From contig JASSKH010000019.1 of assembly GCA_031763025.1 (NCBI GenBank), forward strand, positions 11,902,009 through 11,966,008: a DNA stretch of 64,000 bases, given 5' to 3'. Under the pieces are notes generated by a model. It was not told the DNA's origin and made no database searches. It worked only from the letters and a program-made list of their open reading frames with translations. Of the stretch, positions 668-62,819 are shown piece by piece. Made by a program: the position numbers and the translations under genes. Origin of the DNA: Macrocystis pyrifera. Its lineage: Eukaryota > Sar > Phaeophyceae > Laminariales > Laminariaceae. Positions within the stretch are counted from its first letter, which is position 1, and every line of letters begins with the position of its first letter.

Positions 668-743
668 GCGTTGGCTCCGGGCCCTTTTTCTCCTCCTGCA
701 ATCGCACGACAGTACGCACTCCCACGTCCTGGGCTACTGTCGG

Positions 744-6326: not shown

Positions 6327-6369
6327 TGACGACTCCCCTTCGATAAGCGTTATCTCCGTGAGTGCCGCC

Positions 6370-29306: not shown

Positions 29307-29788
29307 TTAGTAATAGCGACCCACCTCCGTGATGCTCAGCCACAAGCTCGGGTTGGACTCGTGGTCGTGAAGGCAAATCCTGACGTCGGCGGTTTCATCC
29401 GAGTCAAGAATGAACCCTTGGTATCCGTTCGTCGTGCCGCTGGACTCAATCTGACTGTGGAATTCACCATTGTCGTACACGTCAAGAGATAGGGCGCTCT
29501 CTGTCCCCTTGAAAAACGCGATATCCATTCTGACAATGTCCTGGGGATCGTTGAAGTCATACTCGATGCAGCATCCCCCGGTCCCGTTGACTAGGTCTCC
29601 CTTACAGGACCAGCGAGAGCTGTCATCGAGACTGTCGTCCCGAGTGTTTTCCGGCCTGCAGCCATCGGGGCTGCACCCATTCCCGGACGTCCTCTCGTCA
29701 AACGCTGTGGCGTCCACTGCAACAGTTGTCCGTTCGGCAGCATCCACGAGATCTGGATTGGCGGGAATTATGTTCGAGGGGGCAGGGT
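29307..29788 (-). CDS. Terminal exon: galactose-binding-like C-terminal domain
   Basis: Acceptor CAG at 29,789-29,791, phase 1 (two bases complete a codon), then 159 codons and TAA. A short Pro/Asn linker is followed by GCSPDGCRPENTRDDSLDD, SSRWSCKGDLVNGTGGCC and IEYDFNDPQDIVRMDIAFFK. It ends SNPSLWLSITEVGRYY. The layout resembles discoidin or carbohydrate-binding beta-sandwich modules, in which a W-x-C start, a central YDF-x-x-PQDI strand and a final SITEV strand are typical. Six Cys suggest an oxidising, extracellular environment. Naming the exact domain family needs a profile search. Confidence 0.75.
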
Positions 29789-32700
29789 CTGCGGGGGTTT
29801 AGATGCCGGGGCCTGTAGTAAGAAAGCTTGGGATCATGAGGCGCTGAGGTAGCAGCTGCTGGGGTTATGTTGATTTATTTGTTTGGTTTGGACTGTGGTC
29901 ACTGCATGTGAATGCGGCGGGGGATCTCGCACCAGACGCCAATAATTCGACATTTTGCTCCCAAGGGACTCCAGTGTGTTACGGTATTTGGTGCGTGTTG
30001 ATGGTATCTGATCTCGGTTGGTAGAGTGATGTGTTGTGTTCATCCGGATGACACGCATAGCAGAACACGACATGATTGTCGGCCGAGGGCATCGTCCGTG
30101 ATCCACTGCAAAACCACTTACACTCTTTGCGCAACAAGCACGTTCGAACTATTTCAGACTTCTGGAGCATCCGGTAACTCGAACAAGGCTTTGGCGGAAA
30201 GTTTTTCATGCCTCGATACACCGACCCACCCAATCCGTGAACCGCCACGTAACGGAATAGGCCCCGCAAATGCCTGCATAACCTCATTTGTGAAGTACAT
30301 TGTTAGACAATAGCCTTATTGGACGTCCATAGGTTCCTTCCCAGACCGCGGTCAAACATTCCGCTAAACCACACCTATCTCCATAGGTTCCTTCCCAGAC
30401 CGCGGTCAAACATTCCGCTAAACCACACCTATCTGTTAACGCATGGGTCATAGCTATGTATTTGTCGTATACCTATCGGGGAACGGTTATGAGGTACCTA
30501 CCTCAGACCGGTGTTTGCCGCGAACACAATCCCGGTTGCTTCAATCGGCGTTTGACCATAAGTGCAGAATTAATACATAGATCTTCGCGTATGCCCCCCA
30601 CAGGCACAACACGGATCGACGTGTTGGATACTACAAGTACAATGTCGAAGTAAATCTGTAGTTTTCTAACGTTGCTTGGTGTGTCCTCTACGCGTGTAAA
30701 TATCGAGCGAAGAGTACACAAACGCTGCACGTCATACCAGCGGCAGAATAAATATAGTTTGGATTACGCTCCGTTGGTCAACGCTCAAATTCTTTGAAAA
30801 ATATTATTTTGCCCGGACTTCCAGTCGCTCCTCGTCTCACACGACGTTGCAAATCGGCGCTCCCTCTGGTCGATGTGTTTAGAATCTCTTTTACGGTGAA
30901 TGCTAAAGAGTAATTCGTATGTCGTTATGAGTATGATTTGCCGTGTGTTATAGTCACCAGTTCGCAAATCCGTGTCACCGGTATCAACGTTGAAGCGGGT
31001 AGCACAACTGACGACATGATCAGAGAGACAACCACTCGCCTGAAGAAGGACAAGAAAACGCCCTCACCAACTTGGAAGAGGACCCGACTGACAACGACAG
31101 AAAAACGCACGAGGGGCAAAGAGAGTCAAGGAACAGAAAGAAGTATTATTGGGAGTCCTAACGCCGTTTAACCATAGCAAGGACGTACAGCCACATATGA
31201 TGTGTACGAGTTTGGTGTATTCGTAGGGAAATTGTGACGGAACTGCCGAAGATTTAGATGACTTTGTTCCCTTTTGATCACTCTGATAACGCCTTGTAAT
31301 ATAGCAACAGATATCACTTCCTACGACGTTCGAGCATGTGACAGGGGCACCCGGTGAACGCACTGGATAGTGCTAAACGTAATGTCGTAGGTCGTACTGG
31401 CACCATCAGCGTGGGATTGGATCTACACACCACACAACTAAAGTAGCTTTCATAGCACGAACTGTTCCAAACTGCGTATATGACGTGGCGCAATAAACTA
31501 ATATGTGACAAGTGGGATTTTGTTGTTCATCCTAGCCCAAGCCCGTTTCTCTTTTCATGCTATATATATGGTCGCATGTAGAGTGGGTACGTCAGAACAT
31601 CAATTAATAGAATGCATAGACACTGGCAACCATCTATGCGGCGATACCCGCTAATCGTAGACCCGGAGACACAAACCCGTGGTTGCGCGATGATGGCGAA
31701 ACCTTACACTCGTCAAACAGATCGCGATGTAGATAATCACCTTTTTGTCTACTCTAGATCCTAAGCCGCACTATTGGGGTCCTGTTTAGGCCGTTAAGAG
31801 TGCAGATCTGACAGACGACGTATGACCTGGATAGTACAGACCAGGTATTTGTTAGGCATGGACAGGATCATTCATATGTGAAATTTGTCAGCCCTAAACC
31901 ATATGGGGCTTGCAGTAGGAACAGAATGTATGTTCGAGGCGTGAATCCTTGTAGGACATGAAACACTCCAACGACGTTCGGGAAAACCAACGTCGGGAAT
32001 ACGTATGGTACACGTCGACAAAATATGCAACTACGCATGTTGGTAACATGCCACACACCGCAGCTGTAGCCGTTGTTTCCAGGCTGGCACTCGCAGGGAG
32101 AACCATCCTCATCGCAAGTAGGGAAGTCCGGGCACTCTGCGCAACGATACCAACAAATACAGCATTGCGGTGGTATCTTAGCACGCGCGTAAACGCCATT
32201 TTCTGGTCCGTATATGAACTCCACCGGTCATATGTGACTCGTCGTGTGCTGTTTGTCAACCTGGCTGATATGAAGTGCTTTCGTGCGGGAGATGAGCAAA
32301 TTTGACCACCGGGTTATGACAAGCCAAACAGCGGCCTATAAAATCGCGGTGGTTGTAACCCTGAGAAAAGTGGTATTTTTTCCTTCTCACCGCGCGTCAG
32401 GTAAGACAACCCGCATTCCGGAATCAATCATATGATAGCTCTGATGATGCGTACTGGCATGGTGGAACATAGTCGTGCGTAACTCGGAACAATTCGATAT
32501 CGATATAACAAATCACATCTCAACCGGTAGCAGACTGACTGTCTGGGGTTTATGCTCTTCGATAGCTCATACCTACGCTTGACATCCACCACCCAAACAG
32601 GAGGAACTCGAACCCGAGAGGCAAAGTACGAAAAGAGGCACCTAATTACCCGACGACCCCTCAGGTGCCGAGCTGTATACCCCACTCTACCGATGGCCTT

Positions 32701-35700
32701 GAAGATCACAAAATTGCAACTGGGCGAACAACTTCATGGTGAAGGTATACTTGGACAATGTTTCAGCCACAAACGCTTTCCGCGCGATACTAGGTAACTA
32801 CCACCTGAACTATGCCCCGTTGACGAGACCTATCTCTTCCACAACGGAATACTGCTAAAGTAGGACGTGTCTCGACTTCAACGCTAAAGGGAAACACTCA
32901 CCGCATTCGGTGGTGTCATCGAACCCCTCGGGAAATCGGACATCTTCCGTGCTTCTGCGGTACGAGGCCACGTCAGAGCACAACAGCGTCGAAATTATGG
33001 TTCGAGGTTAACCTTATGTTATTTCGTCAGAGTGGATATGTATCTACAGAATCGAGTTGACGCGTTCACGATTGACGGGGACGCGGACCTTCAGGCCTCA
33101 CGGCCAACATGTTTCAGTGCGCCGAGAGGTTTACGGGTCGCATACATGCCGTGTCCACGAAACGAATGGCGAGTGGCCGCAAGCAGTTGAAGCGCTGTGG
33201 TAATGAATGTGTTACAGTACCAAGATCCCTAAACACTTAAAAAGGAAGGGAACATCGGAGAAATGGAACATGGTACCAAGCGCTACGGTATAACACGCCG
33301 TACGTAGTATAATGCGGCAAATATATGCACGCATTGCATAACCACAGCATAGGGAGTCAAGAAAAACTCACCTTTCGGGGAGGCATTGGAGATCTTCGTT
33401 GTTTCTCACGTCCCTGCGCAGGGCGAAAGGCATAACGATATTGCATCAGGAAGACGAGTCCAGGGTTAAGACGAACAAGTGAATATTACGGGGGACCATA
33501 GAAAATAGGACCTACGATACATGCAAAAATATGTATGTTGTCTCCATTTTATAACAACACTGTTTGGTCCTACTTACTATAGCCCACCAATATAGCAGAG
33601 TTCATCACCATCCTGGATCAGATGAGGCCAGTGACATGGTCGTCGGACGGAATACTGTGCCGAGGTATAATTAGGTATTTCCAAGCGCGTCACGGGAGAC
33701 GATTACGGGACCCCAAATTCACCACACGTGTTCTTCTAGAAAACATCGACGACACCGTACCGTGATAAGAGGGGTAATTCATGGCCTAGAACGCCTTCGG
33801 CTTTCGAGCGACTGTTTCTGCGTCGACCAGAAGGCTCATAAAAAACGAAGAAAAGGCGAGAAACGTGGTTGAACGCGATATAGAGCTTAGCACGCATATA
33901 CAGTATGTAAAAACACACTGACCCCCTAAAGCCGAACCCACTGCTGGGATAATTCCAAATACTCTAACAGAGCGTAGTTTGTTGCGTTGCCAACTTTCCA
34001 ACCACACACTTGGTCGTATTCGGGGGATAAAACCACACACAGCGGCGATCCATTCAAACCTCGGGCCTACACGTGGTTGGGAGTTCAATCACGGAAGAAG
34101 TACATCATCAGCATGGTTGGATTATTGCGCATTATTGCCTGAGTTGTACCTCAGGAACGTACTCACTAGGAGCAAACAAAAGGAGTTCAACCAACTACGC
34201 TCGCTGCGCTCATGAGGCGGAAGGGTTTTGTTAGATGCTGGAATTGTTGAGGTCGTGTGTCTATCTAAAAGGTACTGACATTCGGCCTAGCTCCAACAAC
34301 AAATGCGCCAACAGCCAAGGTGTGAAACCATCTATTAATAGTAAGGAATAAGGTACGATTTGGACTTTTTTTTATCCCAAATCCGTGTTTCCTGGTCAAA
34401 CTACAACCAAGCGCTCGGTCTTACAGACGTGGAGAGGATTCATTTTTTGGTTTACAATTATCTTGAAATTTAGGACTACTGATCCGACATGGAGACAACA
34501 CCCGACGACTCCCAGGCGCTTTCTGCCCGTCCTAGCTTGTCAAGGTAGCTATCCAACATATGCTTTATGTTTGCATTGGGTGTCTCATCATGTTCCATTT
34601 ATTTGCCGAACATTGTATCACTTGATTGCGGAAGGCGCCTACAGTTAAGAAACCGACACCACTGTCCAAAGAAACAGGGATGGCCAAAGTCTAAAGATGG
34701 TCACCGCTCAAGGAGAAATCTCACCTGTTCGTCAAGGAAACGTCTTCCCCAACGGCGATGCGTATGGTATCACCGTACTGTGCTTGAGTTCCTCGCACGG
34801 AGCAGTGACGTCTCCATGACAGAGTTGACTATCGTCCGACTGCGTGAGGCGGGAGGTATGTTCCTATCCTCTTTCGGGGGCCCTTGCCATGAAATCAAGC
34901 ACGTCTGGGTATTGCAATCAAACCACACGTATGTTTCGTTCGTGTAGCATAATAGCAACCGTACACTGGCTATACCTGCAGGCCGTCGTCACTAAACGAC
35001 CATCAACATCAGGTGCCCGTGCACGATCGAGCCCTCCAAAACGCCATGCAGCAAAGATAACGATCGACTAAACGCAAGTCGCGACGAAGCCAGCATGTAT
35101 CCGAGACTACACTTACGGGCGATGAAAGCTTTATTGGGCACTTACAAGTGGGTTAGAGCTTCCAACCCATCGAACAAACCGGCGGGGAGGGTTGTCAGGC
35201 TGGTGTCATGTATATACCTGGGCGCGGAACGAACGGAAACAAATGTCAACGATTCAGTCGTTGGTATGACAAGTGCGGTCGAGCGATAAAAAAACCGCAA
35301 CTTGACGTTACAGCCTATGTGTCGAACACAAAATGAAATACCGGACTCGAATTTGTGCCTGCTGTAGTCGGAATACGGATGAACCCGGAGAAGTACAACG
35401 TCAACGGTTGACTTCCCAGTTCTCTGCTGATAGAGCGGATACTCACAAGTAGGTCAATGAAGCCAAGTTATCGAACACGTCCGTCGGAAGAGAGGCGATA
35501 TTGTTGGTCGATATATCCCTGAAGATGTTTCGTGCGAGCAAAAGACATTAAAACGTCGGACAGCGAGAGCGAAGGTTGGTAATGGCTCTTTCGATGCGGA
35601 CATATCGACGACTTGGAAATGGTGGCCCTCGATTCCCAAATGGCGGTTGTCAAGGTACGTTAATCAAGTCGGGCCGAACACGCAGAGGAGGCTTATACGG

Positions 35701-38700
35701 GAACCCAATTAGTGCGCCACATCTTCCGCATGACGGCAAAAAATGTTGACATCCTGAAATGTTGACTCTGTACGTAAATAGACCTGGTATAAAGCGTGCA
35801 CACAAGACAGAGGTCTTGGTGACGTATTTGGGACTTGAGAAACAAACCTAGACGAACACCTCGATATTAGGAACAACGTAACCACGAACTATTCCGGCCT
35901 GGTCAAATCGGAGAGCCTACTTGTAGTATCAAATCTACTTTGTGTAGAGCTGTATGACACGGTTTTCGCATAATACCACTGTAAACGCCCTGACGAACAA
36001 AATCCTCACACGATGAGTGTAGATGGGCATCTCCTTTGTTTGGTCGTTTTTTCTGAGCTCAACAGAGATTGTTGTTTTTTCGTGCCGGGGGCTTGCCGAT
36101 GAAAATGCGCTTCAGGTTTCGTTCTGCAAGTGCTCAAACCACTAGTCGTTTGCAAAATATTTGCTTGGATCGTTGCAAGGTCATCGTTTTGCTCACTCAG
36201 ACGAAAACCACACCAACCGACCAGCCCGTGATGAACCAGGGACTGCGTCTGGACACACCCTGGTGCCTCCATACTAATCGAGCAATGGGTAATATTGCTA
36301 TCGATTGTCTTGGCCCGTTTAAATCGGACCACCCATCACATCAGATGATTGTGGCATAGTTAGGTCTTGATCAGTTTTCTGGATCGATTAATCCGGTAAC
36401 TAGTTGCATGAATAGCCATAAACGAGAGCGTGGGGCACATCTCAGGCACAGTCCAGACACATTCCGGCGTATTGGAGTGCGGAAAAGAAACCGCTTGTGA
36501 AACGACCCTGGCCATTTTAGCGTTCGCCAGCACAACAGCACAAGGCGAGTAATTTCTAAACCTATTGCCACCTCGAAAACACTCATACCAAAAAACATTC
36601 TACCTCAAATTTACAGTGTCTTAATGCGTCTAAATGAAGTGACCTACCCCCCACCCCCCCCTCTCGCTATGTGATCGCCTTGTGCGGGTCAAAGAACGTA
36701 TCCGTGGACCCGAGAAGGTGACCTTAGTGTTGGTCAAGCACCACGAGGTGCTTTGGGCGACATAGAGAAACGATTTTGGTCATGCTAGGCGCTACAACCA
36801 TTATATTGCTCTGGAGCTCCCACCTGTTAGATTTACCCAGATAACTGACTTTGAGGATCGCTTCGAACGATATACCCGATACCAAAAGGACAGGTAGTGT
36901 ATAATAGGCACGGAATCCGATGACACAGTAGAGAACGGAGCTACAGACGACCAACGCCTTTTCGGATCAAGGCTGGAAACCATACTGTGACAACAATACC
37001 GAGCGAACCTTTCAAACGTGCAAACGGAAATTGGTAGCAATTTGTGTAGCATCAACTGTTCAGCTCGTGGTATACATTTCGTTCTGTTGGCGTCCGTAAC
37101 GGAGAGGGCCAGATGGTGGTTGGGCGATTCTTCATGGGGTATGGGGTAGCTCCCCTGCTATAGGAGTTCAGTCAGCGTGATACGTTTTGGCCATCAATGG
37201 CGACCTCTTCAGTAGAACGACTCGTCTCTTTTCCGTCGAATGAACCAGCCCCAGCTACTTCAACACATGTGTCCCTCTTGAATCGATGTATTCCCAAGGA
37301 TCCGATGGCCCATGAATATGCGCTCACAGTCTATCCAGATCCGTCGTACTTGCGAAAATTCCGGCAGGCAAGGCTGTGATCTTGTTATCTTGCAAGCGTC
37401 TGTGTCGTCACAGACGGGGGAAGGTGGCGCGTACAAGTGAACACATGTAATATGCATGGTGCTTGATCACTTCGCCCGATGTGCAACAAACAACAGAACA
37501 CATTGGGAATTCCATCGGTATTCGTGCCATATCAGCCTGAGTTAAGAAACTGGCAGCACCGGTCTGTAACGGGATGCACGCCATGCGTTTCGACTCCATG
37601 TGGAAACACGCCCGCTAACTTCCTGAACTGGCGATTCCACACAGCAAAGCACTGGCAATAGTACGATACTTCATGTTCCACGGCCGCATTGCTGTGTAAA
37701 CTCGGCCATCAATTCCATCAACAAGAATACAGCTAACGTGCCGCGCAAATGTTGGACGGCGTGGGGGAAGGTTTCATCCAAGGTTGAAAACCTTAGCGGG
37801 CATGCCAGCGATGGAGCCTTAACCATTTCAATATCGCCTACATCTCGTTTCTACACCCGAACGCAGAGCGAGTGGACTCACACAGATTGCAGAGCCGGTG
37901 TCCGTTCAAATAGACTCGCTGGCAAGGTAGACAGCTCATTGCTGTCGATGAACCTGAATCAAACCACGGTATCGTAGCAGGGCGAACGGTTGGAAACATT
38001 GGGGTGCGCCACCAAAGGTATTGGAGCCTCCGACCAGACTATCATATGCACTGTCCCTCGTTGAGCCAAGTATACACCCTCTCATGGTACAAACGATCGT
38101 GGTATGCACACCACAGTAAAATAGATTTTCCGTGACTATGTTGATGGCCTAGACGATTCACTTCGTCGGAAATATCCCTAGCTGGTGAAGCCTCGGAGGT
38201 ATGAGCCAGCAGCTCCCTGGTGCAACCAACACCTTGGATGCTCTCATATGATCACATATATTATTGAATTTCGTTGAACCATCACTGGTTGGTCGGCGCG
38301 TTTCGGGGATAAATCGAGCGGAGAAACTCCTCACGACGCTAACTCTGGCCCAAACCGTTGGAAAGCTCTGTTGGGGAAGATATTACACCGGGGACAAACC
38401 ATGGTGGACTTCGAACGGTAGTAGGAACACTTCGTGGATATATTTCGATATACATCTGAGACGCTAACTCGAGTGGCAGGCGTGATGCGTGGAGGCCAAG
38501 CACGTGCACTATTAAAGTCGATCAAACATCGGCACATCAACAATATTCTCACCCAGACCGCAAACAATTGCCTCGATATGAAATTCGTGAAATAAGATGC
38601 CATAAAATAATTCTACAACGTATATCTGTTTACGCGGATAACAGACAAATTTCCTCACGGCAACTCGCCAGCAACACCGTTTTCTTAAGTGACTGCAAAG

Positions 38701-53700: not shown

Positions 53701-56700
53701 TGCTTGGACGCCGGTGGTGGTACAACTATCGAATTCCTCCAAGGGCGAGGTGACAGATATTGCAAAACGAACAAGACGAAAAACGCACGCCACGAGGTAC
53801 AGGCGCACCACCATATATCAACTCTAACCTAAACCTGAACCAGCCTCAGCAGGTCGAAGAGGTTGCGCAAGATAGGTCACACCTGATATGACAAACGACC
53901 TGGGACCTTGCTCCCCTGTCCACAAACTCACCCCTCAGCAACGGAATCATGCGTTCAGGGAGCGGCTAATATAATGAACCTGCCGGTCTGCTACTCCGCA
54001 CGAGATGTGTCGAATGGTCACCGATATGATTGTCAAGATCTTGTCACCACCGCGATTCGGTCTTCGAAATTACTCCGCAGTTCGCTTTGCACATGACGTT
54101 TCAACCTAGGCCAGATAGTGGGTGTAGTGTATGCTGCTGTACGGTTCTCTAAACCCGAAACGACAGAATCCCCACCACACCAGGACTGTAGGTCAAATTG
54201 CTTGTATGTCCGCGATCGTTCAGGTCCAAACGTTCCACTGCTCTCTACGTTTGCTTCCACAGTCGACACCTAGACACCATTTCGCGGGGAGGGCAAGAGT
54301 ATTGATATACGTAATATTTCGAACTATCTATATTTAATAACCGCCTAACGGGATCAGCTTGCACAGCTTCCGTCGTCGTGATTGAAACGTGGAGGAGATC
54401 GTCAATTATTTCTTGTGCAGAATTAACTTCTGGTTTCCGGCAGAAGTCTTGCTTCTGTCGATCACCCGATTATCCGCAATATATACCACGTACATTCTAT
54501 TTCAAAGGCATGGGTAGACTTTGTCACTCCCTGAAATCAATGTTTGTCAGTCGTAGCCGGGTCCCGCGTGATATTTGGATCTCGCCATCGCTTGTAGCAT
54601 ATTTCACCATGTTGAGTACGATACATCATAGTATCACATGCTAGTCGTTCGCATCAGCCAAACCCCAACTTGTATGCGACCTCAGCAATCACATCTCACT
54701 CGATTCAGGTAAGCTACCACGTAGGTCGGGCTTCGATATAACTCACAGTTCAGTGATGGATCCGCCTATGCCGTCAAATATGCCTGCTGGAAGAATGGTG
54801 AGCTCGTTCCGACGTAGGTTCCTGTGTTAGCGACAGCGTTAGGACCGTACGGACGAAATTCGCGGTGCATTCGCGTAGGGGCTTCAATGCGATGCTGACA
54901 AATCCGAGACAAGCAGCAAACTTTCTTCTCGCTTCCGTGGAACGACGCCAGTGTCTAACGACACAACCACTGTGTGGTACAGGCAACATGCCCTGATGTA
55001 TGTATTCACTACTACCACAACATCGGCAAGGAACGTATGAGGCGCTAGCGTTTGCATGTCGAAGGTACTGGTGCACTACTATTATGGGGCATCCAGAGTT
55101 TCAGTAGGGTGTCAATCGTAACGGATCGACCGTGGAAAAGGAAACGTTGCATTACACACTCGGCACACATGTTAACATTCGTTTTCCAAGGGCCGTTTGA
55201 CGGTACATGTTGGGTCTTGCAGGACGGCCGACGTCCGAATTTCCGACAGATTCGGACGTAGCCCTAGCCGGCACTACGTACACTAAACGGTGTCGTGTGT
55301 GGTGATATAGGGAATGGATCATCTGCCACAAATGAGGCCGAAGCGATGTCTTGGACATTCACCTGCTGAGGAGCAAGCGCTTCTCTATTTCTTGAAGTGC
55401 GTGTGCATGCCGGCACTACCGAACCCTTGTCAGATTTTGTCATTCGAACCAATAATGTCAGATGGTTTCACTCACAACAACGTGAGAGATGGCAGGCCGT
55501 CGAACACCCCCACTGGTAAGGTGGCAAAGTCGTTGGAGCCAAGATCCCTGGTGAATATGCAACAGGAAGCAAACGGGCTTAATCGGACGTACATATTAAG
55601 ACATGGCGTTGGTTGTCTGCAGGTCTTGGTGCAACCGCTAAACCAAAGACGCAAAAGTTTCGTATTTGAAAATAGCAGCTCATCACATCTGGGAAAAACG
55701 TAAAAGCGATGATCAAAGGCCAGGTGGTTGTACCTACCAACAAATATAAGGGATTGCATGATACCCGAACGCTGTCAAAGTGGTTTGACTATCAATACCA
55801 ATGCCTGTTTCCGTGCAAGTGTGAAGTACTCGGCGATATTCTTATGCTCAAACCCTTTGTTTTTCGAAGACCTTGACTTTGCACGAGCCGCACAGTAGTT
55901 GAAGGTTGACTTAGTTTCAAATGCAGGATGTTACGCTTCCCTCGCGCCAGCCGCTTGCATAAAGAATGTACAACCATATTCAAAAACTTGTGGGACTAAA
56001 GACCATCGTGAACTTGGTATCCATGTGTTAGAAATATCAATTCAGTTGTTTTCAACTGACGCGGTCTACGATACCACTTACAGTTCGCGGAGCGACGCTA
56101 ATCCGACGAAGACACCAGGTGGCAAGGTCTTCATGTTGTTGCCGTCGAGAGTTCTTCAGTCGTCCGTTGTCAGCGTAGCACCAACGACGAGGTGTCGATG
56201 GGTGATCCAAAGGGGCGGTGGCATGTTAGCTTAACACATGCACCAGTATCACAACGGACCGCTACGAAAGGTGTATTTTGGGTACCCATCCCCCTAGACG
56301 AGTGATGCGGACGCGGTTCCCCAATTGACAAGGAATTTCAACATCTATCACGAACCACGAGGAATTCGCTCGGTTCGTTACTGGAATTCACTGCAATGAT
56401 CGTAAGTGCATACGGTCGGTGCAGGCTGCGCAAAAAAAAACGTCCTCAAGTATAAACTATCACCATCGATAGCACACTAGACTGGAGACACAGAGACCAC
56501 AGCACCCAAACTGAAATATTTTGATATTCTCACAGCACTTCAACCGCTGAAGCTCCCTTGAAGTTGCCGGCCTCCAAGATAAGGTCGTTGTAAGAAAGGC
56601 CCCTGATTTGCCGTGTCGCAGAGAGGAAGTCGTCAGGGTGATTGGGCATACACTGTTGGTTGCTTGGCTGCAGAAGTATTTTTATGATAACTATCCAATG

Positions 56701-59700
56701 ACTTCAAACCAGGGCGGTGCCAGGCTCACTGAATCCATCTGCAATAGTACACGTGAACTGAATAGTGCCTGCTGGAAACAATATTCTGGACAGCGGATAT
56801 TAGTGACACGGTAGCCACCAAACAGTAAGAGTATTTTGTTTTATACACTCCGTGCGATCTCGAACACTACAACGATCAAACGAAAACAGTATCCCCGGCC
56901 GGCCCGAAGCAGCACGAACCTTGAACACAACAACAGACTCTAACGCCCAAAAGGTTTGAATTTAATGCAACCTCGGCCATCCAACAATATACTGGATAGC
57001 CGCGTACACGCTTGTCGCAAAGTCAATCAATGGCGACCGAAGGCACGGGACGGGGATAACCTCGTTTGTTGTTTGTCGCTCGGAGCCACCCGGCCGAGTG
57101 GCTAGTGGCTACCCGTTTTTCACGTCGGCTTGACCGATGTTTCTGTTTGGTTTCGCGGTGTGCAATGCCATGGGGATGATTGTTACGCTGCTCCAACATT
57201 ATTTTCTTCAATTCTACCTGGGAGTGAGATACCGGGCCGTCCGTGCGAGCGGTGAAAAGACGTATCGTAGTGAATACAAACATAGTCCCCGTACCGCAGA
57301 ACGTATCTGAACGGTTTGGATTATGCGATACTCACAGGGCAACCAGTGCTCCCAAATGATCGAAGATGTCGAGTTGCAGTGCGGTAAGGTCGTTGTAGTC
57401 GAGGCGCCTGCGGGACGGCAGTATTTGTAGAACAAGACATAGACAACAGTATCGCAAGGGTCGTAAGGTCGCTACTTGACACCATGGGCGCAGGTATATA
57501 CTCACAGCCTCCCGCCAATATGATCGCCAATTTGCACAACCCTCAGCACACACGATATAAAAGAGAGCCTGCCAACGTAGGGTCACCCCTAGAGTGTCCG
57601 AGTCTGCTGGCTTGAGGAGCTATATGTCATGCCCTCAGAACGACCTTGACCGAACTGAAAGCACAACTCGAAATACACATGCATGTTTTTCGCGTCGACA
57701 AATACATGCAGTCGGTATTCCAGAGATTGTCTAGCGATATTGGAATAGTAACTTAGTTTACTAGCTCAACAGGCACAAACAGAACCGTCCACACGTGCTA
57801 CTCCAATCGCAGCACGCGTCGCCGACGTTGTATGGCCTATGTGAAGCGAACAAACACTCGGCAAGTGCGGCCTTACCGACTTTGTGGAGTAGTGAGAGCT
57901 TGTACGGGCGAAATGGACATATATCCGCGATTGTGAGGTACCCCTACTTCCCGGTTTCAATTCAGAGACATCCGGCCCTGCCCTTGCACCGCGGAATGCT
58001 CGGATTGGCCGATGCCGCGAAATCGTTAGTGGGAGTTACACACACTATTTTCGCCTGTAAAATCCGTGAGGGGTTAAGGCAACCGACCCCCCTCATCTTA
58101 ACAGGTTCGACCGCGTTTACCACCCCGTGAGTTTGCTGGTACTACTGTAACCACTACGTTGCGTAGTACATACATGACAGACAGCTGAATGTGCGTGTTG
58201 TGCCCGTATTCGTGGGCACGCGGGCACATGCTAGCTTGGAGCGCACCAATTGTTATGTTGAGTTCCTCTCGTGAAAAGCCCTATACCTCACTCAAACCGA
58301 TTTTAGATAACTATAATAATGCCATCCGATGAACGATCCCGTGACTCAGGTATACACAACGTCAACGATGCGGAAGACATATGTCATTTCGATGATTTTG
58401 GGACAAGGAGCCTCGTCGTCGCAAATACTATGCAGGTGAAGTGGACTGCCTGTTTCGCAGCACGCGTCTAGAATACAGTTCCAACACAGTAGTAATAGAC
58501 TACGGACGACTACAGAATACATATCTGAATTCGTCGCACCCTGAACGAGCACTAGCGGTATCTGGTACGTACGCCACAGCCAAAGTTTCGTGTACCTACT
58601 GTAGTTTGCACGCTGCCGATTAAGGCTCTTCAATATGCCAGATGGCAACTGGACAAAGTATTCGAGCCTACACACCCAGAGTAGTAGCCGGTCCTTGCGG
58701 TTTTGTCATTGCGGGGGCGAATATGTATTTTTAGACATGGGATGGCTGATGTTCAACAACACACATGTTCGGTGCCTGTGTTGTACACGTTTCTACTCTA
58801 GTGTCTTCTGCTGCGGACGATATGAGGGATGCACACTAGAGTATACCAAACATCTTGTTTTGGGAGTGCAAATTTAGTGTGTGGGGGGGGGAGGGCCTCT
58901 GCACCCGTCGCACGATCAATCACGCGTCTGTTCAGCACTACCAACACCCAACCTAGGTCTGGGAGTCGTTTTTATTTTTCAATTAAATATGTTAACATGG
59001 GGATCACAATTAGGCTCGGTCTGGTTCCCTGACGTCAAATGACAACAACCACGAATATGGCATCGGTAACCCTCGGTCCAGCGCTAGGCCGACAATGCGG
59101 TGGTAAATGCTGCGTAGGTATGTGTTTTGTGTTCGCCTGGCTTGATACACACTTTACTGAACCGTGTTATTTGCTTGGGTACTTAACCAACACTCACAGG
59201 TCCTGAAGAGACACCAAGTCGTCGAAGATGTTATCAGGCAGAGCGACAAGATCGTTGCTTTGGAGATCCCTGGGAGGCAGCCACAAGTTGAGAGTGGGAC
59301 GGGGAATACATTCTAGCTGGCCGCCTTAAATGATTCGTGCGCATTCTTCAGAACGTGACTAACGTGTCCTTGCTTGGATTGATATCACTTCGATGCCTAG
59401 CGCGAAAAGGACAACAAGTGACGTCCTCGCCAAAGGTCGCCACTGCGGGGATACGATGATGGCTGTTGTTTTCGTGGATGTATGCAAAACACTCACAGAT
59501 TCTGGAGCGATACCGAGCTGTCGAAGATGTTATCAGGTAGCGCAGTAAGCTTGTTGTCTTCAAGATTCCTGCGATGCAATAACGAACCGAAATTTTGGGC
59601 GGGCATCACAAACCAGTTGGCCACTTTCAAGCTAATTGCACATCCCTTATAATATGGTTGACATGTCCCTTCCTGGATGGATATCACTTGGAATGCCTAA

Positions 59701-62700
59701 CGCGTACGAACAACAAGTTACATACTGGTCGAAAGTCGTGACTGTAAAAAAGAGTTAAATTTGTTGTTTGCATCTGTGTTTGAACTAACACTCACAGCTC
59801 CTGAAGCGACACCAAGTCGTCGAAGATGTTATCAGGCAGCGCCTTAAGCCCGTTTTCGTGAAGATCCCTGGGCGACGAACACAAAGAGGTGGCGGGAATG
59901 GATATACAAACCAGTGGAGCACCCTAAACATACGTCGCTCATATCCTTCACCGCGTAACCAACGATTCCCTTCCGGGATGGGTATCACTTCTATGACAAA
60001 GGTGAAACGAACAGAAACATATTCCGGCGGAAATATTGTCACGCTCAAGGCGAACGTTTTGGAAAACGCATGGGCCGACAACACCGCAAAGGATTGTGAA
60101 ACATTGAAAACATCGTACATCTGTCATTGTATACGCCGCAAGGAATAGCACCGTCGGCGGTGTGCCCGATAACCGTATCAGGCATAGATAAGGTGGAAGC
60201 TTTCCTTGGCACGAAACGCGCACAACCACTCTCTGCCTTTACTCGGCCTCACGCAAGCGAGCAGTTCGATACGTTACGACGGGTACCACATTTGCGGCGT
60301 GGTTTGCATTCACGAACTCGATAAAGGTATACTCACAACTTTTCCAGAGCGACCATGCCATCGAAGAGGCCAGCTGGCAAAGCCGTGAGCTGATTTCCAA
60401 CGAAGAGCCTGGGTTTATTTTCGTTGAAACGGCGGTGCGAAAGTAAACGCGTGACACAAATGGCGCCCACAGGTCGTTGTTACATGAGGCCGCCTACATG
60501 GCGAGGACAATTACATGAACACGTTTCGGTCCTGAACGCTGGGACTGAAAAAGCAACGCGTTTGGTCTTACTCAAGCGCTTACGGGATAGCGACCTGCAT
60601 GAGTCCCGAATGAAACGTTTGACTCGGCGCATTGTCACATGGTCTGTCACCTTCCCTCACCCGGTCATTTGTGTTGCCGGTGCTCGTGCCTTAGCTGTCG
60701 CATGCTTGCACCACGGGTATAAGAGCGTGCCACGACAGAGAGAGTATGCTTGGACGGAATCATTTTATGGCAGCCAGGGCTGCCCAACCAAGCCACTGTA
60801 CCCAATAGCATGCATTCAACACAAATGGTGTTTAGCATGCCAGTATTAGTCTATCTAGGCCACCGAAATCCATTTAAACGTTATTAAGAAAAGGTGGGTG
60901 TGGGCGGTATAAACCGGGTCAGCTGATGAGTCCGAGGGACACCTGGGTAAACCCACTTCGTAGCATACGTCGATAGGCGGATTAATATTATCCAAGGAGA
61001 AACCATGTCGAACAAATACCTATGCCGAAGAAGAAGATCAAAAATCTTACCAAGTGAGCAGGTGCTCCAACGACCGTGATGGTACCACTGCTGCAGCGTT
61101 CCTCCAGGGGGGGTGGGGTATAGACATTGCGTGACGATCTAAAGAGCGAGGCAGAATACTAAAAGCCACAGCGTCGCAACCAATGCAAATCAAGAACAAT
61201 CCGAACCAGTGAGAGCAGGTTAACGACGTGGCATTGATATATTTTACCTCCCATTGTACAATGTTCGTTACATCCTGCTGCATAAACCGAATATTTTGCT
61301 CGGTAGGGGTACCTACAAAAATTGCGTCTACCGACCTGCAATTGTCCACGTGCTCAATAGGGTAGGTTTGTTATGGCTGTCAAGACCTGCCACGATTAAG
61401 CGTTGCACAATACACGGCAGCTCACTTGGCAACGTAAATTCAACAGCAACCAAGAATGCGGGTATAGTTTACGCCACGTATTGCTCAAATCGTTGATCGT
61501 TTAGCTCTATACGTATAAGTGTTTCCACGTTTACGGCGGTAGTCATATCTAAACTCTGGGAGAGAAATTCGCGAAGCCGTACGAGCAGGTAGATGTGTTT
61601 CGTTGAACAAATCAGCGATGACCGTCGTGATATCAACTGGAACAGCTCTCGTCGCAACGTTTTCAACTGATATGAGATACGTCATTTTTTGGAAGGACGC
61701 ATGGGCTTACGCGACACGTTTGTTCGTGTCGTCCACCCAATCTCTCGCAGTACACATACTTATATGTATCATGCCCCGTCTGTTTTCAGGCTACTTGGCA
61801 GGAATGTATCCCCCTCTTAGATCAGTATTAGAACCACGTGGCTTGTTGCCCTAAGACATCTTCATCTCGGCAATATTTGATGTTTGTTACATCCCTTTGA
61901 CAACAACATATCGTACCGTTACGCACTTGGTGCCCCCATCAGTGCGAACCCCTAGATTCTTTACACGTAAAGCAGGTAAGTATGCACTGTGCGCCACTAC
62001 AGGATGGTGTTTTACTGTACTCACAGTTCTACCATGGATCCGCCTGTGCCGCTAAAGATGCCAGCGGGGAGTGTGGTTAAGTCGTTGTCACCCAAGTCCC
62101 TGCGTCAACGTACATGACAGGGACGTCTTTATGAAACATCGCGAGTTGTTCGCGCGGGAGCATCAATGTGTTTCTCAGGAGTCCGAGACGAGCAGAAACC
62201 CTATTGGTCGGGTCCGTGGAACAATGCATATATTCAACAACGCAAGCATCGTACGACCGCCCGGACGACTTACCGCGATGTAGAACGTTTTCACGCCACC
62301 AGAAAAATGACTCACGAATGACTGTCGTGTGCGTTTGGAATATATCGCAACCCTACTGTAAATCGGCATTCTTAACTTCAACCGTTGGCGGCGGTAAAGG
62401 GTTGATTCTAGAACATTGGCGGTACAATTGCTAACATGTATATTAAAAAATCCGCTTGACGGAAGGTGTTCGGTGCTGCAAGATTGCGAACGCCGGACGT
62501 AAGAGCAATATTTGGATGTGCATGTACAGCCTCCCGGACCGGGACCCTACGAACGATGTGGTGTGGTCGAATAGGAAATCGATCTTCTGCGATCACCACG
62601 ATCACCGCGATGTCTTAAGCGTTTAAGCGCCGAGCACTGGGTCCTTCTCGGTTCCTTCAAAGACGTATACATACGTGGATGCGTACCCGCACTACCGTAC

Positions 62701-62819
62701 CGTTTTAGACTACATTCAGAATAACAGCGTCCGTTGTTTTCACTCACAACCACGTTAGAGACGGCAGACCCTCGAACAACCCGGCTGGCAAGGTGTCAAA
62801 TCTATTGAAGGCAAGGTCC
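29307..62819 (-). CDS. Giant one-LRR-per-exon receptor-like gene, 5' end outside window
   Basis: Exons on the minus strand run from 62,819 to a stop at 29,307-29,309. There are 26 in-frame exons of 69-75 nt each coding one 23-25-residue LRR (consensus L-x-L-x-x-N-x-L-x-x-LP-x-G-I/V/L-F-D-G-L-x-x-L-x-x), one frameshifted exon (42,035) and three tentative ones. A half-repeat exon, a linker exon, a Cys-rich EGF-like exon and a galactose-binding-like terminal exon follow. LRR introns are all phase 2 (one base, 22-24 codons, two bases); donors are mostly GTGAGT or GTAAGT, acceptors CAG or TAG. Junction phases are consistent to the stop. Likely an extracellular recognition protein; ligand unknown. 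No transmembrane segment or kinase/ROCO domain appears 3' of the repeats. The first exons, including any signal peptide, are outside the window. Two adjacent genes cannot be excluded (4.1-kb gap at 48.4-52.5 kb). Confidence 0.8.
29789..32058 (-). other. Last intron of the LRR gene, 2.3 kb
   Basis: Donor GTGTGT after the EGF-like exon and acceptor CAG before the terminal exon. It contains the perfect 54-bp tandem duplication at 30,327-30,434. No coding sequence seen. Confidence 0.6.
30327..30434. repeat. Perfect 54-bp tandem duplication
   Basis: Units at 30,327-30,380 and 30,381-30,434 are identical and begin CCATAGGTTCCTTCCCAGAC. Perfect identity implies a very recent event or an assembly artefact. 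Confidence 0.95.
32059..32136 (-). CDS. EGF-like Cys-rich exon, 78 nt, phase 1-1
   Basis: Codes CPDFPTCDEDGSPCECQPGN followed by NGYSCG: five Cys with the CxC-x-PG spacing of EGF-like modules. Acceptor CAG at 32,137-32,139; donor GTGTGT. It starts with two bases and ends with one, so it joins the linker exon (giving ...ECECPDF) and the terminal exon (giving ...SCGDPAPSN or ...SCDPAPSN, depending on the joined base) in frame. Confidence 0.7.
32137..32901 (-). other. Intron between linker and EGF-like exons
   Basis: About 0.77 kb. It contains a weak box B-like sequence (32,604-32,614, minus strand) and a 7-bp hairpin (GGCACCT...AGGTGCC, about 32,638-32,670), neither convincing as an RNA gene. 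Confidence 0.5.
32902..32954 (-). CDS. Linker exon after the LRRs, 53 nt, phase 2-1
   Basis: Codes STEDVRFPEGFDDTTEC. Acceptor CAG at 32,955-32,957; donor GTGAGT at 32,896-32,901. The first base A completes AG from the half-repeat exon to Arg. The last base completes a codon with the EGF-like exon. This is the exon that changes intron phase from 2 to 1. An upstream in-frame stretch (LLCSDVASYRR) could extend the exon, but the phase match favours the start given. Confidence 0.6.
33372..33413 (-). CDS. Half-LRR cap exon, 42 nt, phase 2-2
   Basis: Codes DVRNNEDLQCLPE, the first half of an LRR with a Cys, as in LRR C-terminal caps. Donor GTGAGT at 33,366-33,371 and acceptor CAG at 33,414-33,416. 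Its final AG joins the linker exon's first A as Arg, giving LPERSTEDV. Confidence 0.7.
33486..33592. mobile_element. MITE copy B inside an LRR-gene intron
   Basis: Left end TTACGGGGGACCATAGAAAA, then TAGGACC. The right end reads GGTCCTACTTACTATAGCCC. Same family as copy A, with a more eroded right inverted repeat. Confidence 0.75.
33593..35145 (-). other. Intron between last full LRR exon and the cap exon
   Basis: Together with 33,414-33,592 this forms a 1.7-kb intron. Apart from the MITE I see no repeat or coding sequence. Confidence 0.5.
35146..35217 (-). CDS. LRR exon (last full repeat before the cap)
   Basis: 72 nt, phase 2-2. Codes YIHDTSLTTLPAGLFDGLEA then LTH. Donor GTAAGT at 35,140-35,145, acceptor CAG at 35,218-35,220. 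Canonical LP-AGLFDGL core; Asn of the motif is replaced by Thr. Confidence 0.88.
35447..35518 (-). CDS. LRR exon
   Basis: 72 nt, phase 2-2. Codes DISTNNIASLPTDVFDNLAS then LTY. Donor GTGAGT (35,441-35,446), acceptor CAG (35,519-35,521). The intron to the next exon is only 229 bp. Confidence 0.9.
35519..37327 (-). other. 1.8-kb intron
   Basis: No clear exon. A minus-strand stretch near 36,830-36,890 reads GISFEAILKVSYL, faintly LRR-like, but lacks usable splice sites and correct spacing. Confidence 0.5.
37328..37399 (-). CDS. LRR exon
   Basis: 72 nt, phase 2-2. Codes RLQDNKITALPAGIFASTTD then LDR. Donor is GTGAGC (37,322-37,327), acceptor CAG (37,400-37,402). Close relative of the exon at 38,747 (shared DNKIT-x-LPAGIFA). 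Confidence 0.88.
37882..37953 (-). CDS. LRR exon
   Basis: 72 nt, phase 2-2. Codes FIDSNELSTLPASLFERTPA then LQS. Donor GTGAGT (37,876-37,881), acceptor CAG (37,954-37,956). Confidence 0.88.
38747..38818 (-). CDS. LRR exon
   Basis: 72 nt, phase 2-2. Codes LLEDNKITGLPAGIFADTVS then LEV. Donor GTGAGT (38,741-38,746), acceptor TAG (38,819-38,821). Resembles the 37,328 exon. Confidence 0.88.
38819..40285 (-). other. 1.5-kb intron
   Basis: No LRR-type exon recognised. The plus-strand frame at 39,364-39,810 (148 codons) has no family resemblance and I treat it as chance. Confidence 0.5.
40286..40357 (-). CDS. LRR exon
   Basis: 72 nt, phase 2-2. Codes IFEENQITSLPPGLFDGCDK then LES. Donor GTGAGT (40,280-40,285), acceptor TAG (40,358-40,360). 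Contains an unpaired Cys in the DG-C-D position. Confidence 0.88.
41260..41331 (-). CDS. LRR exon
   Basis: 72 nt, phase 2-2. Codes YVHKNELASLPEELFQSAQA then ITD. Donor GTGAGT (41,254-41,259), acceptor CAG (41,332-41,334). Confidence 0.88.
41384..41455 (-). CDS. Divergent LRR exon
   Basis: 72 nt, phase 2-2, donor GTGAGT (41,378-41,383), acceptor TAG (41,456-41,458). Codes DLSKTYLPAPPEKPVHCSTD then LDT. It keeps the leading L-D-L-S and the closing L-D-T-L frame, but the LP-x-G-x-F core is lost and a Cys added. The intron to the 41,260 exon is just 52 bp. Exon size and phase are exact, so it is probably still spliced even if the repeat no longer folds normally. Confidence 0.65.
42035..42107 (-). 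pseudogene. Frameshifted LRR exon, 73 nt
   Basis: Donor GTGAGT (42,029-42,034), acceptor CAG (42,108-42,110). The first half reads QLQENEFK. One base later, in the shifted frame, ELPAHLLDGLISLHI completes a good LRR. The exon is 73 nt instead of 72, so including it would shift everything downstream. As flanking introns are phase 2, skipping it would preserve the frame. A sequencing or assembly indel is also possible. Confidence 0.8.
42383..42487. mobile_element. MITE copy C inside an LRR-gene intron, TA target site
   Basis: The left end reads TTACGGGGCACCATAGTTAA. The right end read inversely is TTACGGGGGTCCATAGTAAA. TA flanks both ends (42,381-42,382 and 42,488-42,489). Same family as the copies at 17,841, 33,486 and 48,639. 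Confidence 0.85.
42722..42778 (-). CDS. Tentative short LRR-like exon, 57 nt
   Basis: Donor GTGAGT (42,716-42,721), acceptor CAG (42,779-42,781), phase 2-2, multiple of three. Codes IAVPDSLYSFFFAYETWF; only the A-x-P-D-x-L core recalls an LRR. It could be a shortened or decayed repeat, or chance. Confidence 0.35.
43213..43284 (-). CDS. LRR exon
   Basis: 72 nt, phase 2-2. Codes YLAENALSALPAGIFKGLTS then LFN. Donor GTAAGT (43,207-43,212), acceptor TAG (43,285-43,287). Confidence 0.9.
43777..43848 (-). CDS. LRR exon
   Basis: 72 nt, phase 2-2. Codes NIRENRLLSLPEKIFDGLVS then LQF. Donor GTGAGT (43,771-43,776), acceptor CAG (43,849-43,851). Shares exon core and part of its flanking intron (CGTGACTAAC-x-CGTCC) with the 299-bp tandem set at 59.2-59.9 kb. 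Confidence 0.9.
44336..44407 (-). CDS. LRR exon
   Basis: 72 nt, phase 2-2. Codes LLWENQLTTLPTGVFDGMSV then LSE. Donor GTGAGT (44,330-44,335), acceptor CAG (44,408-44,410). Confidence 0.9.
44926..45014. repeat. Two-copy tandem duplication, about 44 bp
   Basis: Both copies carry AAACAAATCATAGCCCCACA and end CCCTTGAAGACTA, with minor differences between them. Confidence 0.9.
45700..46010. repeat. Degenerate minisatellite, part 1
   Basis: Irregular units of about 30 bp built on TTTAGGTACGACCTTCGG followed by TACCTACCTACG-like sequence, strongly diverged between units. Resumes at about 46,600 after some 590 bp of unrelated sequence. Confidence 0.5.
46600..46960. repeat. Degenerate minisatellite, part 2
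   Basis: Same unit family as 45,700-46,010 (GTTTAGGTACGACCTTCGAT, GTGTAGGCACGACCTGCGGT and similar), in the same orientation. Confidence 0.5.
47651..47722 (-). CDS. LRR exon, EAG-type
   Basis: 72 nt, phase 2-2. Codes SLYSCEIASIEAGAFNGAPA then LEV. Donor GTGAGT (47,645-47,650), acceptor CAG (47,723-47,725). LP is replaced by IE, as in the 56,534 exon, which shares EAG-x-F-x-GA-x-A-x-EV; the pair forms a subfamily. Confidence 0.85.
48341..48412 (-). CDS. LRR exon
   Basis: 72 nt, phase 2-2. Codes NLGFNNLAFLPAGTFDGLPS then LTR. Donor GTGAGT (48,335-48,340), acceptor CAG (48,413-48,415). Third member, with its flanking intron sequence, of the family at 55,476 and 62,748. Confidence 0.9.
48639..48742. 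mobile_element. MITE copy D inside an LRR-gene intron
   Basis: The left end reads TTACGAGGAACCATAGTAAA. The right end read inversely is TTGAGGGGACCATAGCAAAT. Shares CCTACGGTACACACAAAAAC with copy C. More eroded, and TA flanks are no longer visible. Confidence 0.75.
49950..50293 (+). other. GC-rich patch with an open frame inside the long intron
   Basis: A plus-strand frame (50,000-50,293) reads EISRSEIAQILRWQGALRGA and, further on, TSAETVLTSTLLQEHNLDAQ before a Gln run. Composition is more coding-like than its surroundings. It could be an exon or pseudogene of another gene on the opposite strand. No family recognised. Confidence 0.25.
52524..52595 (-). CDS. LRR exon
   Basis: 72 nt, phase 2-2. 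Codes DLNGNELLALADNIFDGLVS then LQD. Donor GTGAGT (52,518-52,523), acceptor CAG (52,596-52,598). Same subfamily as the 299-bp tandem exons at 59.2-59.9 kb (DNIFD-x-LVSLQD), with LP changed to LA; its intron is also homologous to theirs. Confidence 0.9.
53167..53238 (-). CDS. LRR exon
   Basis: 72 nt, phase 2-2. Codes NLESNQFSTLPAGLFDGLNA then LTI. Donor GTGAGT (53,161-53,166), acceptor CAG (53,239-53,241). Confidence 0.9.
53239..54746 (-). other. 1.5-kb intron
   Basis: No exon or repeat recognised. A donor-like site near 53,928 has no open phase-2 exon behind it. Confidence 0.5.
54747..54821 (-). CDS. LRR exon, 25-residue type (75 nt)
   Basis: Phase 2-2. Codes NLRRNELTILPAGIFDGIGG then SITE. 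Donor GTGAGT (54,741-54,746), acceptor CAG (54,822-54,824). One residue longer, with a GGS turn, as in the exon at 62,025, its apparent duplicate. Confidence 0.9.
55476..55547 (-). CDS. LRR exon
   Basis: 72 nt, phase 2-2. Codes DLGSNDFATLPVGVFDGLPS then LTL. Donor GTGAGT (55,470-55,475), acceptor CAG (55,548-55,550). Paired with the 54,747 exon in the same way that 62,748 is paired with 62,025. Confidence 0.92.
56082..56153 (-). CDS. LRR exon
   Basis: 72 nt, phase 2-2. Codes TLDGNNMKTLPPGVFVGLAS then LRE. Donor GTAAGT (56,076-56,081), acceptor AAG (56,154-56,156). First base is A, so the split codon remains Leu (CT+A). Confidence 0.88.
56534..56602 (-). CDS. LRR exon, 23-residue EAG-type (69 nt)
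   Basis: Phase 2-2. Codes GLSYNDLILEAGNFKGASAV then EV. Donor GTGAGA (56,528-56,533), acceptor CAG (56,603-56,605). Same subfamily as 47,651 with one residue fewer. Confidence 0.82.
57336..57407 (-). CDS. LRR exon
   Basis: 72 nt, phase 2-2. Codes RLDYNDLTALQLDIFDHLGA then LVA. Donor GTGAGT (57,330-57,335), acceptor CAG (57,408-57,410). LP is changed to LQ. Confidence 0.88.
57506..57568 (-). CDS. Tentative short LRR-like exon, 63 nt
   Basis: Donor GTGAGT (57,500-57,505), acceptor CAG (57,569-57,571), phase 2-2, multiple of three. Codes LSFISCVLRVVQIGDHIGGR, which lacks the N-x-L and LP-x-G-x-F positions. Supported only by splice sites and phase. Confidence 0.3.
57569..59197 (-). other. 1.6-kb intron
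   Basis: Contains a GGGGTTAAGGCAACCGACCC stretch near 58,074 similar to one at 49,395. No exon recognised. Confidence 0.45.
59198..59269 (-). CDS. LRR exon, 299-bp tandem copy 1
   Basis: 72 nt, phase 2-2. Codes DLQSNDLVALPDNIFDDLVS then LQD. Donor GTGAGT (59,192-59,197), acceptor CAG (59,270-59,272). The next exon begins exactly 299 bp away and the intervening introns are homologous. Confidence 0.93.
59497..59568 (-). CDS. LRR exon, 299-bp tandem copy 2
   Basis: 72 nt, phase 2-2. Codes NLEDNKLTALPDNIFDSSVS then LQN. Donor GTGAGT (59,491-59,496), acceptor CAG (59,569-59,571). Differs from copies 1 and 3 mainly at residues around the conserved Asn. Confidence 0.93.
59796..59867 (-). CDS. LRR exon, 299-bp tandem copy 3
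   Basis: 72 nt, phase 2-2. Codes DLHENGLKALPDNIFDDLVS then LQE. Donor GTGAGT (59,790-59,795), acceptor CAG (59,868-59,870). Confidence 0.93.
60337..60408 (-). CDS. LRR exon
   Basis: 72 nt, phase 2-2. Codes LFVGNQLTALPAGLFDGMVA then LEK. Donor GTGAGT (60,331-60,336), acceptor CAG (60,409-60,411). Confidence 0.9.
60409..62024 (-). other. 1.6-kb intron
   Basis: Contains the tentative 51-nt exon at 61,051-61,101. The plus-strand frame at 60,424-60,849 (141 codons) shows no domain. No repeats recognised. Confidence 0.45.
61051..61101 (-). CDS. Tentative truncated LRR-like exon, 51 nt
   Basis: Donor GTAAGA (61,045-61,050), acceptor GAG after a C-rich tract, phase 2-2. Codes NAAAVVPSRSLEHLLT, resembling the N-x-L...P-S-x-x-(F)-E-x-L part of a repeat but lacking the start and the F. 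Weak. Confidence 0.3.
62025..62099 (-). CDS. LRR exon, 25-residue type (75 nt)
   Basis: Phase 2-2. Codes DLGDNDLTTLPAGIFSGTGG then SMVE. Donor GTGAGT (62,019-62,024), acceptor CAG (62,100-62,102). Shares the GGS insertion with 54,747; the next exon upstream is 723 bp away (729 bp in the other block). Confidence 0.9.
62748..62819 (-). CDS. LRR exon, 5'-most one seen in the window
   Basis: 72 nt, phase 2-2. Codes DLAFNRFDTLPAGLFEGLPS then LTW. Donor GTGAGT (62,742-62,747), acceptor CAG (62,820-62,822). An incoming phase-2 acceptor proves at least one more exon upstream. Confidence 0.92.

Follow-up and report, generated by a model that had tools for sequence, protein, structure and literature searches.

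In plants, the PGIPs and the LRR extensins are wall-associated leucine-rich repeat (LRR) proteins, the PGIPs being soluble decoys or inhibitors, and the variable lymphocyte receptors (VLRs) of lampreys consist of capped LRR modules with variable concave residues. In brown algae, Teng et al. (PMC11378527) describe LRR exons of 72 bp and phase 2 in the ROCO genes of four species, together with splicing variants and positively selected concave sites; the design of one LRR per phase-2 exon is already published for brown algal ROCO genes. The gene described here, from a 64,000-nucleotide stretch of the Macrocystis pyrifera genome (contig C199, 11902009-11966008; hereafter the window), follows that exon design, as an earlier note on this DNA had recognized: in common with the LRR-ROC-COR genes (Zambounis et al. 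2012, as reported by Teng et al., PMC11378527), it has one-repeat exons of 72 nt in phase 2 and variable concave residues. In contrast to the ROCO genes, its product is predicted to be secreted, lacks a ROC domain, and has N- and C-caps, an EGF-like module and a CBM32-like module.

The gene is real and intact-looking and represents a new architecture within a known exon strategy. The full model, whose exon structure we regard as close to certain, comprises 38 exons on the minus strand over ~41 kb and encodes 983 aa in a single frame ending in a stop codon, with the start of the gene ~5.1 kb beyond the end of the window. A signal-peptide exon is followed by a Cys exon, an N-cap, 29 LRR exons, two C-caps, an EGF-like exon, a 48-nt linker, the CBM32-like exon and a last exon of 21 nt. 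Of the 37 introns, which have a median length of 765 nt and a maximum of 4,111 nt, 36 have GT-AG borders and one has GC-AG borders; 32 are in phase 2, four in phase 1 and one in phase 0. The uniform phase 2 claimed previously holds between the Cys exon and the second C-cap exon and fails for the remaining five introns. In the feature list that follows, coordinates above 64,000 continue the numbering past the window; the first three exons come from comparison with a paralogue on contig C219 (hereafter C219), LRR exons 1-4 from the scan of L045 (the ten kilobases past the window) and LRR exons 5-29 from the LRR scan of the window.

69135-69084, minus strand: first exon, signal-like peptide
68748-68697, minus strand: Cys exon
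67350-67261, minus strand: N-cap exon
66095-66024, minus strand: LRR exon 1 of 29
65211-65143, minus strand: LRR exon 2
64752-64681, minus strand: LRR exon 3
64131-64057, minus strand: LRR exon 4
62748..62819, minus strand: LRR exon 5, 72 nt, phase 2-2
62025..62099, minus strand: LRR exon 6, 75 nt
60337..60408, minus strand: LRR exon 7
59796..59867, minus strand: LRR exon 8
59497..59568, minus strand: LRR exon 9
59198..59269, minus strand: LRR exon 10
57336..57407, minus strand: LRR exon 11, first of a block resembling exons 1-8 (also by block alignment)
56534..56602, minus strand: LRR exon 12, 69 nt, 87% identical to exon 2
56082..56153, minus strand: LRR exon 13
55476..55547, minus strand: LRR exon 14
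54747..54821, minus strand: LRR exon 15, 75 nt
53167..53238, minus strand: LRR exon 16
52524..52595, minus strand: LRR exon 17
48341..48412, minus strand: LRR exon 18
47651..47722, minus strand: LRR exon 19
44336..44407, minus strand: LRR exon 20
43777..43848, minus strand: LRR exon 21
43213..43284, minus strand: LRR exon 22
41260..41331, minus strand: LRR exon 23
40286..40357, minus strand: LRR exon 24
38747..38818, minus strand: LRR exon 25
37882..37953, minus strand: LRR exon 26
37328..37399, minus strand: LRR exon 27
35447..35518, minus strand: LRR exon 28
35146..35217, minus strand: LRR exon 29
33372..33413, minus strand: C-cap exon 1, half repeat with LQCLPE, phase 2-2 (C219 conservation score 32; segment also in P0043)
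32902..32951, minus strand: C-cap exon 2, phase 2-1 (weak C219 score of 15, next 12; splice sites match; segment also in P0043)
32059..32136, minus strand: EGF-like exon, phase 1-1 (63% identity with C219; also at L016 and in P0043 and P0050)
31040..31087, minus strand: linker exon VGSSSKLVRAFSCPSS, 48 nt, phase 1-1 (from the loci of relatives; same 16-residue segment in P0043)
29325..29752, minus strand: CBM32-like exon of galactose-binding fold, internal, phase 1-0 (donor after ITE, profile, fold comparison)
28294..28314, minus strand: final exon encoding VKFMVK and the stop, 21 nt, phase 0 (counterparts at C219 and other domain loci)

The scan for LRR exons required AG-exon-GT units of 66-81 nt in phase 2 that match an LRR profile. 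Within 29307-62819 it yielded 25 exons, every one on the minus strand, with lengths of 72 nt (22 exons), 75 nt (two) and 69 nt (one); of the 26 exons of 69-75 nt counted in the earlier note, the size range and the single LRR per exon stand and the number does not. These exons score 18.0-59.1, against maxima of 7.6 on the plus strand and 10.2 over ten Markov-shuffled controls; 18 of the 25 served to train the profile, and the other seven score 18.0-49.6. Among the four LRR exons upstream of the window end, the lowest-scoring, at 13.8, lies near the control maximum and yet is 87% identical to LRR exon 12. Across six loci, 57 of 68 LRR exons are 72 nt long and the rest 69 or 75 nt, and 63 of 68 end in CT or TT, in a set that omits one L058 unit (below 23, with odd ends; six of the seven listed were used) and retains one L061 unit with atypical ends. 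All exons from the N-cap to the first C-cap are frame-neutral, so that repeats could be gained, lost or skipped without a frameshift. Two introns of the array carry a short repeat (window 42382-42482 and 48638-48738, 79% alike) with similar stretches in six other loci, which is probably a small mobile element. Elsewhere in the window, positions 170-7000 on the minus strand hold long open frames with stretches that by eye resemble reverse transcriptase, RNase H and integrase (RDYRGLN etc.), probably an LTR retrotransposon.

The short exons at the two ends of the gene were located by comparing the window gene with C219. The signal-like peptides of the first exons at these two loci, MRVIKLLIPLLFAVGTD and MWLTRLLGPLLLVVTTAD, share an identical donor and phase, and the peptide is partly present in P0043 too; the C219 candidate at 31239 agrees with the window gene in sequence, donor and phase, and an alternative at C219 37693 was dropped. 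The Cys exons of the two loci, LNPCISDKVCSSGSTS and LNSCFTDARCAPGVSD, score 35, against 17 for the runner-up. When the last LRR exon is spliced directly to the EGF-like exon, the frame contains stops, and it was this that led to the search in which the two C-cap exons were found. The EGF-like module has a CxCx8C end and six Cys if the last Cys of the second C-cap is included; a comparison of Pfam EGF_laminin with P0043 falls short of the cut-off (E 0.49). The linker exon is present at nine of the ten non-C189 loci examined, L010 being the one where it was not found, and at none of the four C189 loci examined. Its donor is GC in the window gene and GT in the relatives displayed with one; the exon at 31040-31087 may be constitutive or optional in the window gene.

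The open reading frame 29798-29307 had previously been taken as the terminal exon. We reject this assignment: a donor follows ITE, the supposed stop codon is intronic, and the CBM32-like exon is internal (29752-29325), the true last exon being at 28314-28294. By manual count, 24 of the 28 loci that yielded the motif have GTRNGT, a donor-like sequence, following ITE. The last exon was recognized from the C-terminal end of P0043, two similarity searches having missed it because it is only 21 nt long. Its pattern, V-x-[FLI]-M-V-x-stop, occurs ~1 kb downstream of the domain in the window gene and 2 kb downstream in C219. Among 29 other domain loci, each with 1.5 kb of flank, 17 showed it, in every case on the domain's own strand, and 12 did not; some of the 17 are recent duplicates, and the L021 match (VLLMVVI) is atypical and maybe due to chance. 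Past residue 25, the highest mean hydropathy over 19 residues is 1.31, inside an LRR, so that no membrane-spanning-like stretch follows the signal. The signal-like first exon and the capped LRR array together predict an extracellular LRR protein, and the lack of any membrane-spanning-like segment past the signal in the complete 983-aa frame sets it apart from LRR receptor kinases and other transmembrane receptors.

Support for the joining of these exons comes from P0043, a 393-aa ORF on a 1,610-base contig that holds the whole chain in one frame without introns: the end of a signal peptide, the Cys exon, the N-cap, five LRRs, both C-caps, the EGF-like module, a 16-residue linker (AGSSSRLIPAFECVVS), the domain and VQFMVE. 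The linker exon that the window gene shares with P0043 supports the gene structure. P0043 shares 70% identity with the C219 model across the region queried (the C219 query lacked the linker); folded alone it gave a pLDDT of 52, and this model was left unused. As the LRR-bearing loci examined have introns, P0043 is most simply the transcript of a relative; it could also be a retrocopy. The C219 paralogue itself joins alike, with 20 exons, 551 aa and 11 LRRs in the same order of parts.

The intron-free P0043 also bears on the suggestion, made for LRR-only sequences of Saccharina japonica by Teng et al. (PMC11378527), that such sequences serve as a reservoir of donor material. Applied to the present locus, this would make the array a relic or store of shuffled LRR exons for ROCO or other genes, in line with the 15 non-ROCO sequences with shuffling LRR exons, most of them LRR-only, that the same paper reports for S. 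japonica. We consider this improbable for the window gene, whose frame is complete with caps, a signal-like exon and a last exon, and whose CBM32-like domain is under purifying selection.

The order of the repeats points to growth of the array by tandem duplication of genomic blocks and of single exons and not by free reassortment. LRR exons 1-8 (X1-X8) without X4 align in order with exons 11-17 (X11-X17), with 2 of 2000 permutations scoring as high; the same order is kept by seven of the 11 C219 exons when these are set against X11-X17 (13 of 2000 permutations reaching the score). In the pairs checked, the similarity extends into the flanking introns, at 67-77% over 145-387 bases including the exon. 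Given these ordered alignments, block tandem duplication with point change explains the gene better than free shuffling. The exon shuffling proposed earlier is therefore unsupported as it was worded, the X1-X8 and X11-X17 blocks being ordered duplicates whose order is kept in C219. The likeness of the two blocks, together with introns of up to 4.1 kb, is also what would be expected if two or more adjacent genes, for instance one per repeat block, had been misread as one, with the C-terminal exons belonging to the last of them only. Such a misreading is highly improbable: signal-like, N-cap and C-cap exons were found only at the two ends in a non-exhaustive search inside the array, the phase is kept at every junction, and both the 11-repeat C219 paralogue and P0043 have the same ends around one array.

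Variation among the repeats is concentrated on one face. Variability in the 57 exons of 72 nt is highest at repeat positions 3, 23, 1 and 4, where general LRR structure places residues exposed on the concave strand. Six exposed positions have a pN/pS of 1.25, against 0.37 for the rest, in 17 non-independent pairs of at least 72% identity; in eight exon pairs that share no exon, some of them from one subgroup, the values are 1.46 and 0.27. For these eight pairs the pN excess of the exposed set is equalled by one in 20,000 random six-position sets, the exposed set following LRR structure and having been fixed after the entropy table of some of the same exons was at hand. The exposed LRR positions evolve fast; synonymous counts are small, and a pN/pS above 1 at these positions is suggestive only.

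With respect to the C-terminal module, the earlier description as galactose-binding-like is right as to its existence and can be made more exact, the domain being CBM32-like. It matches the profile of the CBM32 modules of the alginate lyases AlyQ and AlyB-OU02 (E 9e-9), and the five Foldseek hits at E<=0.001 are all uronate-type CBM32s. In both sequence and fold, the domain is thus related to CBM32 (F5/8 type C fold), as represented by the modules of the bacterial lyases. A likeness in fold extends to 2jd9, a pectin-binding CBM that we take to be YeCBM32. Unlike the bacterial modules, the kelp domain is joined to LRRs instead of a lyase, has extra Cys residues and, in the window gene, lacks the uronate Arg. 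In AlyQ, whose CBM32 binds cleaved alginate (PMC5651945), this residue is R248, an Arg that may contact the uronate carboxyl. R248 aligns with column 85 of a domain alignment of 36 rows (the window copy and 35 of 42 relative proteins), where Arg occurs in 22 rows, Asn in 12, Glu in one and, in the window gene, Ser. The Trp equivalent to AlyQ W303 is retained in the window gene; the C219 domain keeps the Arg equivalent to R248 and has Phe at the W303 position. The Ser at the R248 position suggests that the window copy may bind something else or nothing. Domain pairs from 16 loci were compared where the two members matched in length and were at least 75% identical; the 12 pairs, which are not independent, have pN/pS of 0.19-0.48, and the domain is under purifying constraint.

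The domain recurs widely in the genome, with 150 scored matches (the best 150 of 186 candidates), some of them fragments or with stops. By manual count, contig C189 has 99 of the best 150 of 186, in the interval 11.08-13.43 Mb, and the remaining 51 fall outside it. LRR exons occur upstream of the domain in the window gene and at all five further non-C189 loci sampled, a set drawn from the domain's closest relatives; matches on C194, C200, C202, C210 and others lie outside it. Over 40 kb at the C219 paralogue, all 11 LRR exons share the strand of the domain; the 10 kb upstream of the domain at the four further loci hold 7, 8, 7 and 7 listed LRR exons on that strand, again with none on the opposite one. 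The separate extracellular branch suggested previously is supported, as the product is predicted to be extracellular and at least six loci share the plan. The only C189 stretch that was read, 20 kb comprising a unit and its neighbour, showed no LRR exon, and many domain copies may therefore serve other genes.

The C189 matches themselves (C189:11083192-13426822; ~99 in 2.3 Mb among the best 150 of 186) are in many cases 10-20 kb apart. Over 8 kb, the unit read (L039, L040) and its neighbour share ~83% identity, and the search of this unit turned up neither LRR exons nor the linker, the last exon or any other clear exon; the last exon is kept at several other C189 loci. On C194 and C202, many matches span only domain residues ~10-108 and stop near one point, as though an intron interrupted the domain or a different module followed there.

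Beyond Macrocystis, the named relatives of the domain are from Laminaria digitata, Pylaiella littoralis, Ectocarpus and, by label, Undaria; searches of viral and prokaryote contigs with one pattern each, of low sensitivity, found no relative. A full-length search with a 967-aa model without the linker returned 1399 proteins; the best 120 are mostly unnamed, and the named ones among them are bacterial or animal LRR proteins. P0050 (841 aa, g15705.t1) shares with the kelp gene the CBM32-like domain, the type of N-cap, LPAGxFEGL LRRs, a C-cap and an EGF-like end, and differs from it in that the domain is N-terminal, before the LRRs, the modules run in the opposite order and two extra Cys-rich modules are present.

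These modules stand where a ROCO gene would have its GTPase. The earlier proposal that EGF-like and galactose-binding-like modules replace the GTPase is borne out, as the frame ends in the CBM32-like domain and a stop, and no Roc match among the 53 listed is closer than 290 kb to the gene. In contrast to NB-ARC-TPR genes, the repeats are LRRs. Conversely, the 10 kb upstream of two Roc loci contain no LRR exons of the window type. In the PDB, the closest sequence neighbours of the repeats are animal extracellular LRR proteins, among them IGFALS, LGR4 and LRRC15, along with TLR3 and VLR chimeras. With the lamprey VLRs the kelp gene shares capped LRR modules, variable concave residues and a similar repeat motif; unlike a VLR locus, the kelp locus is already complete in the genome. 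As proposed for the kelp protein, plant PGIPs and LRR extensins are secreted or wall-held LRR proteins of recognition or sensing; they differ in LRR class and in wall anchor, and we claim no homology beyond the LRRs. In the literature searched, mostly other than subscription papers, we found no secreted LRR-EGF-CBM32 gene family.

We favour, with moderate confidence, the view that this member of a multi-locus family codes for a recognition protein of the LRR type that is secreted and retained in the cell wall. The CBM32-like domain would anchor the protein to alginate or another wall uronate polymer, or would read the ends of such a polymer, and the concave LRR face with its fast-evolving exposed residues would bind variable ligands, most likely microbial, an immune role being less sure than wall-associated recognition as such. 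The array would have grown as ordered blocks of about seven exons, and also individual exons, were duplicated in tandem. As to signal relay, a co-receptor or action as a soluble decoy or inhibitor like the plant PGIPs appears most likely.

The same features might belong to an extracellular-matrix protein of development or cell adhesion, or to one of gamete recognition, in which case the fast positions would mirror self or mate recognition instead of immunity. Many of the closest PDB repeats (IGFALS, LGR4, LRRC15; TLR3 and VLR chimeras) are non-immune, the domain is lectin-like, and none of the present data separate the types of ligand; nevertheless, several LRR-bearing loci with fast concave positions fit changing partners better than a fixed ligand. 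This argument counts against a fixed developmental ligand and is compatible with gamete recognition, and we regard a non-immune role of this kind as rather unlikely, if worth serious attention.

Wall-associated recognition, the reading that we prefer, has a more far-reaching form, which we put forward as doubtful: a repertoire of secreted LRR recognition proteins that are tethered to the wall and are analogous to the VLRs of lampreys or the Dscam of arthropods, in which ~10 to 30 frame-neutral repeat exons per gene would provide many faces via splicing, block duplication and selection, with the CBM32-like tail on alginate or its cut ends. A somatic or splicing repertoire is speculative; if this form were true, wall damage and microbial ligands would be read together.

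The present gene indicates that the design of one repeat per exon is not tied to the ROCO GTPase. Furthermore, in the brown algae, in which complex multicellularity evolved independently, a secreted LRR family with fast-evolving binding positions and a domain like those of alginate lyases would give candidates for extracellular recognition.
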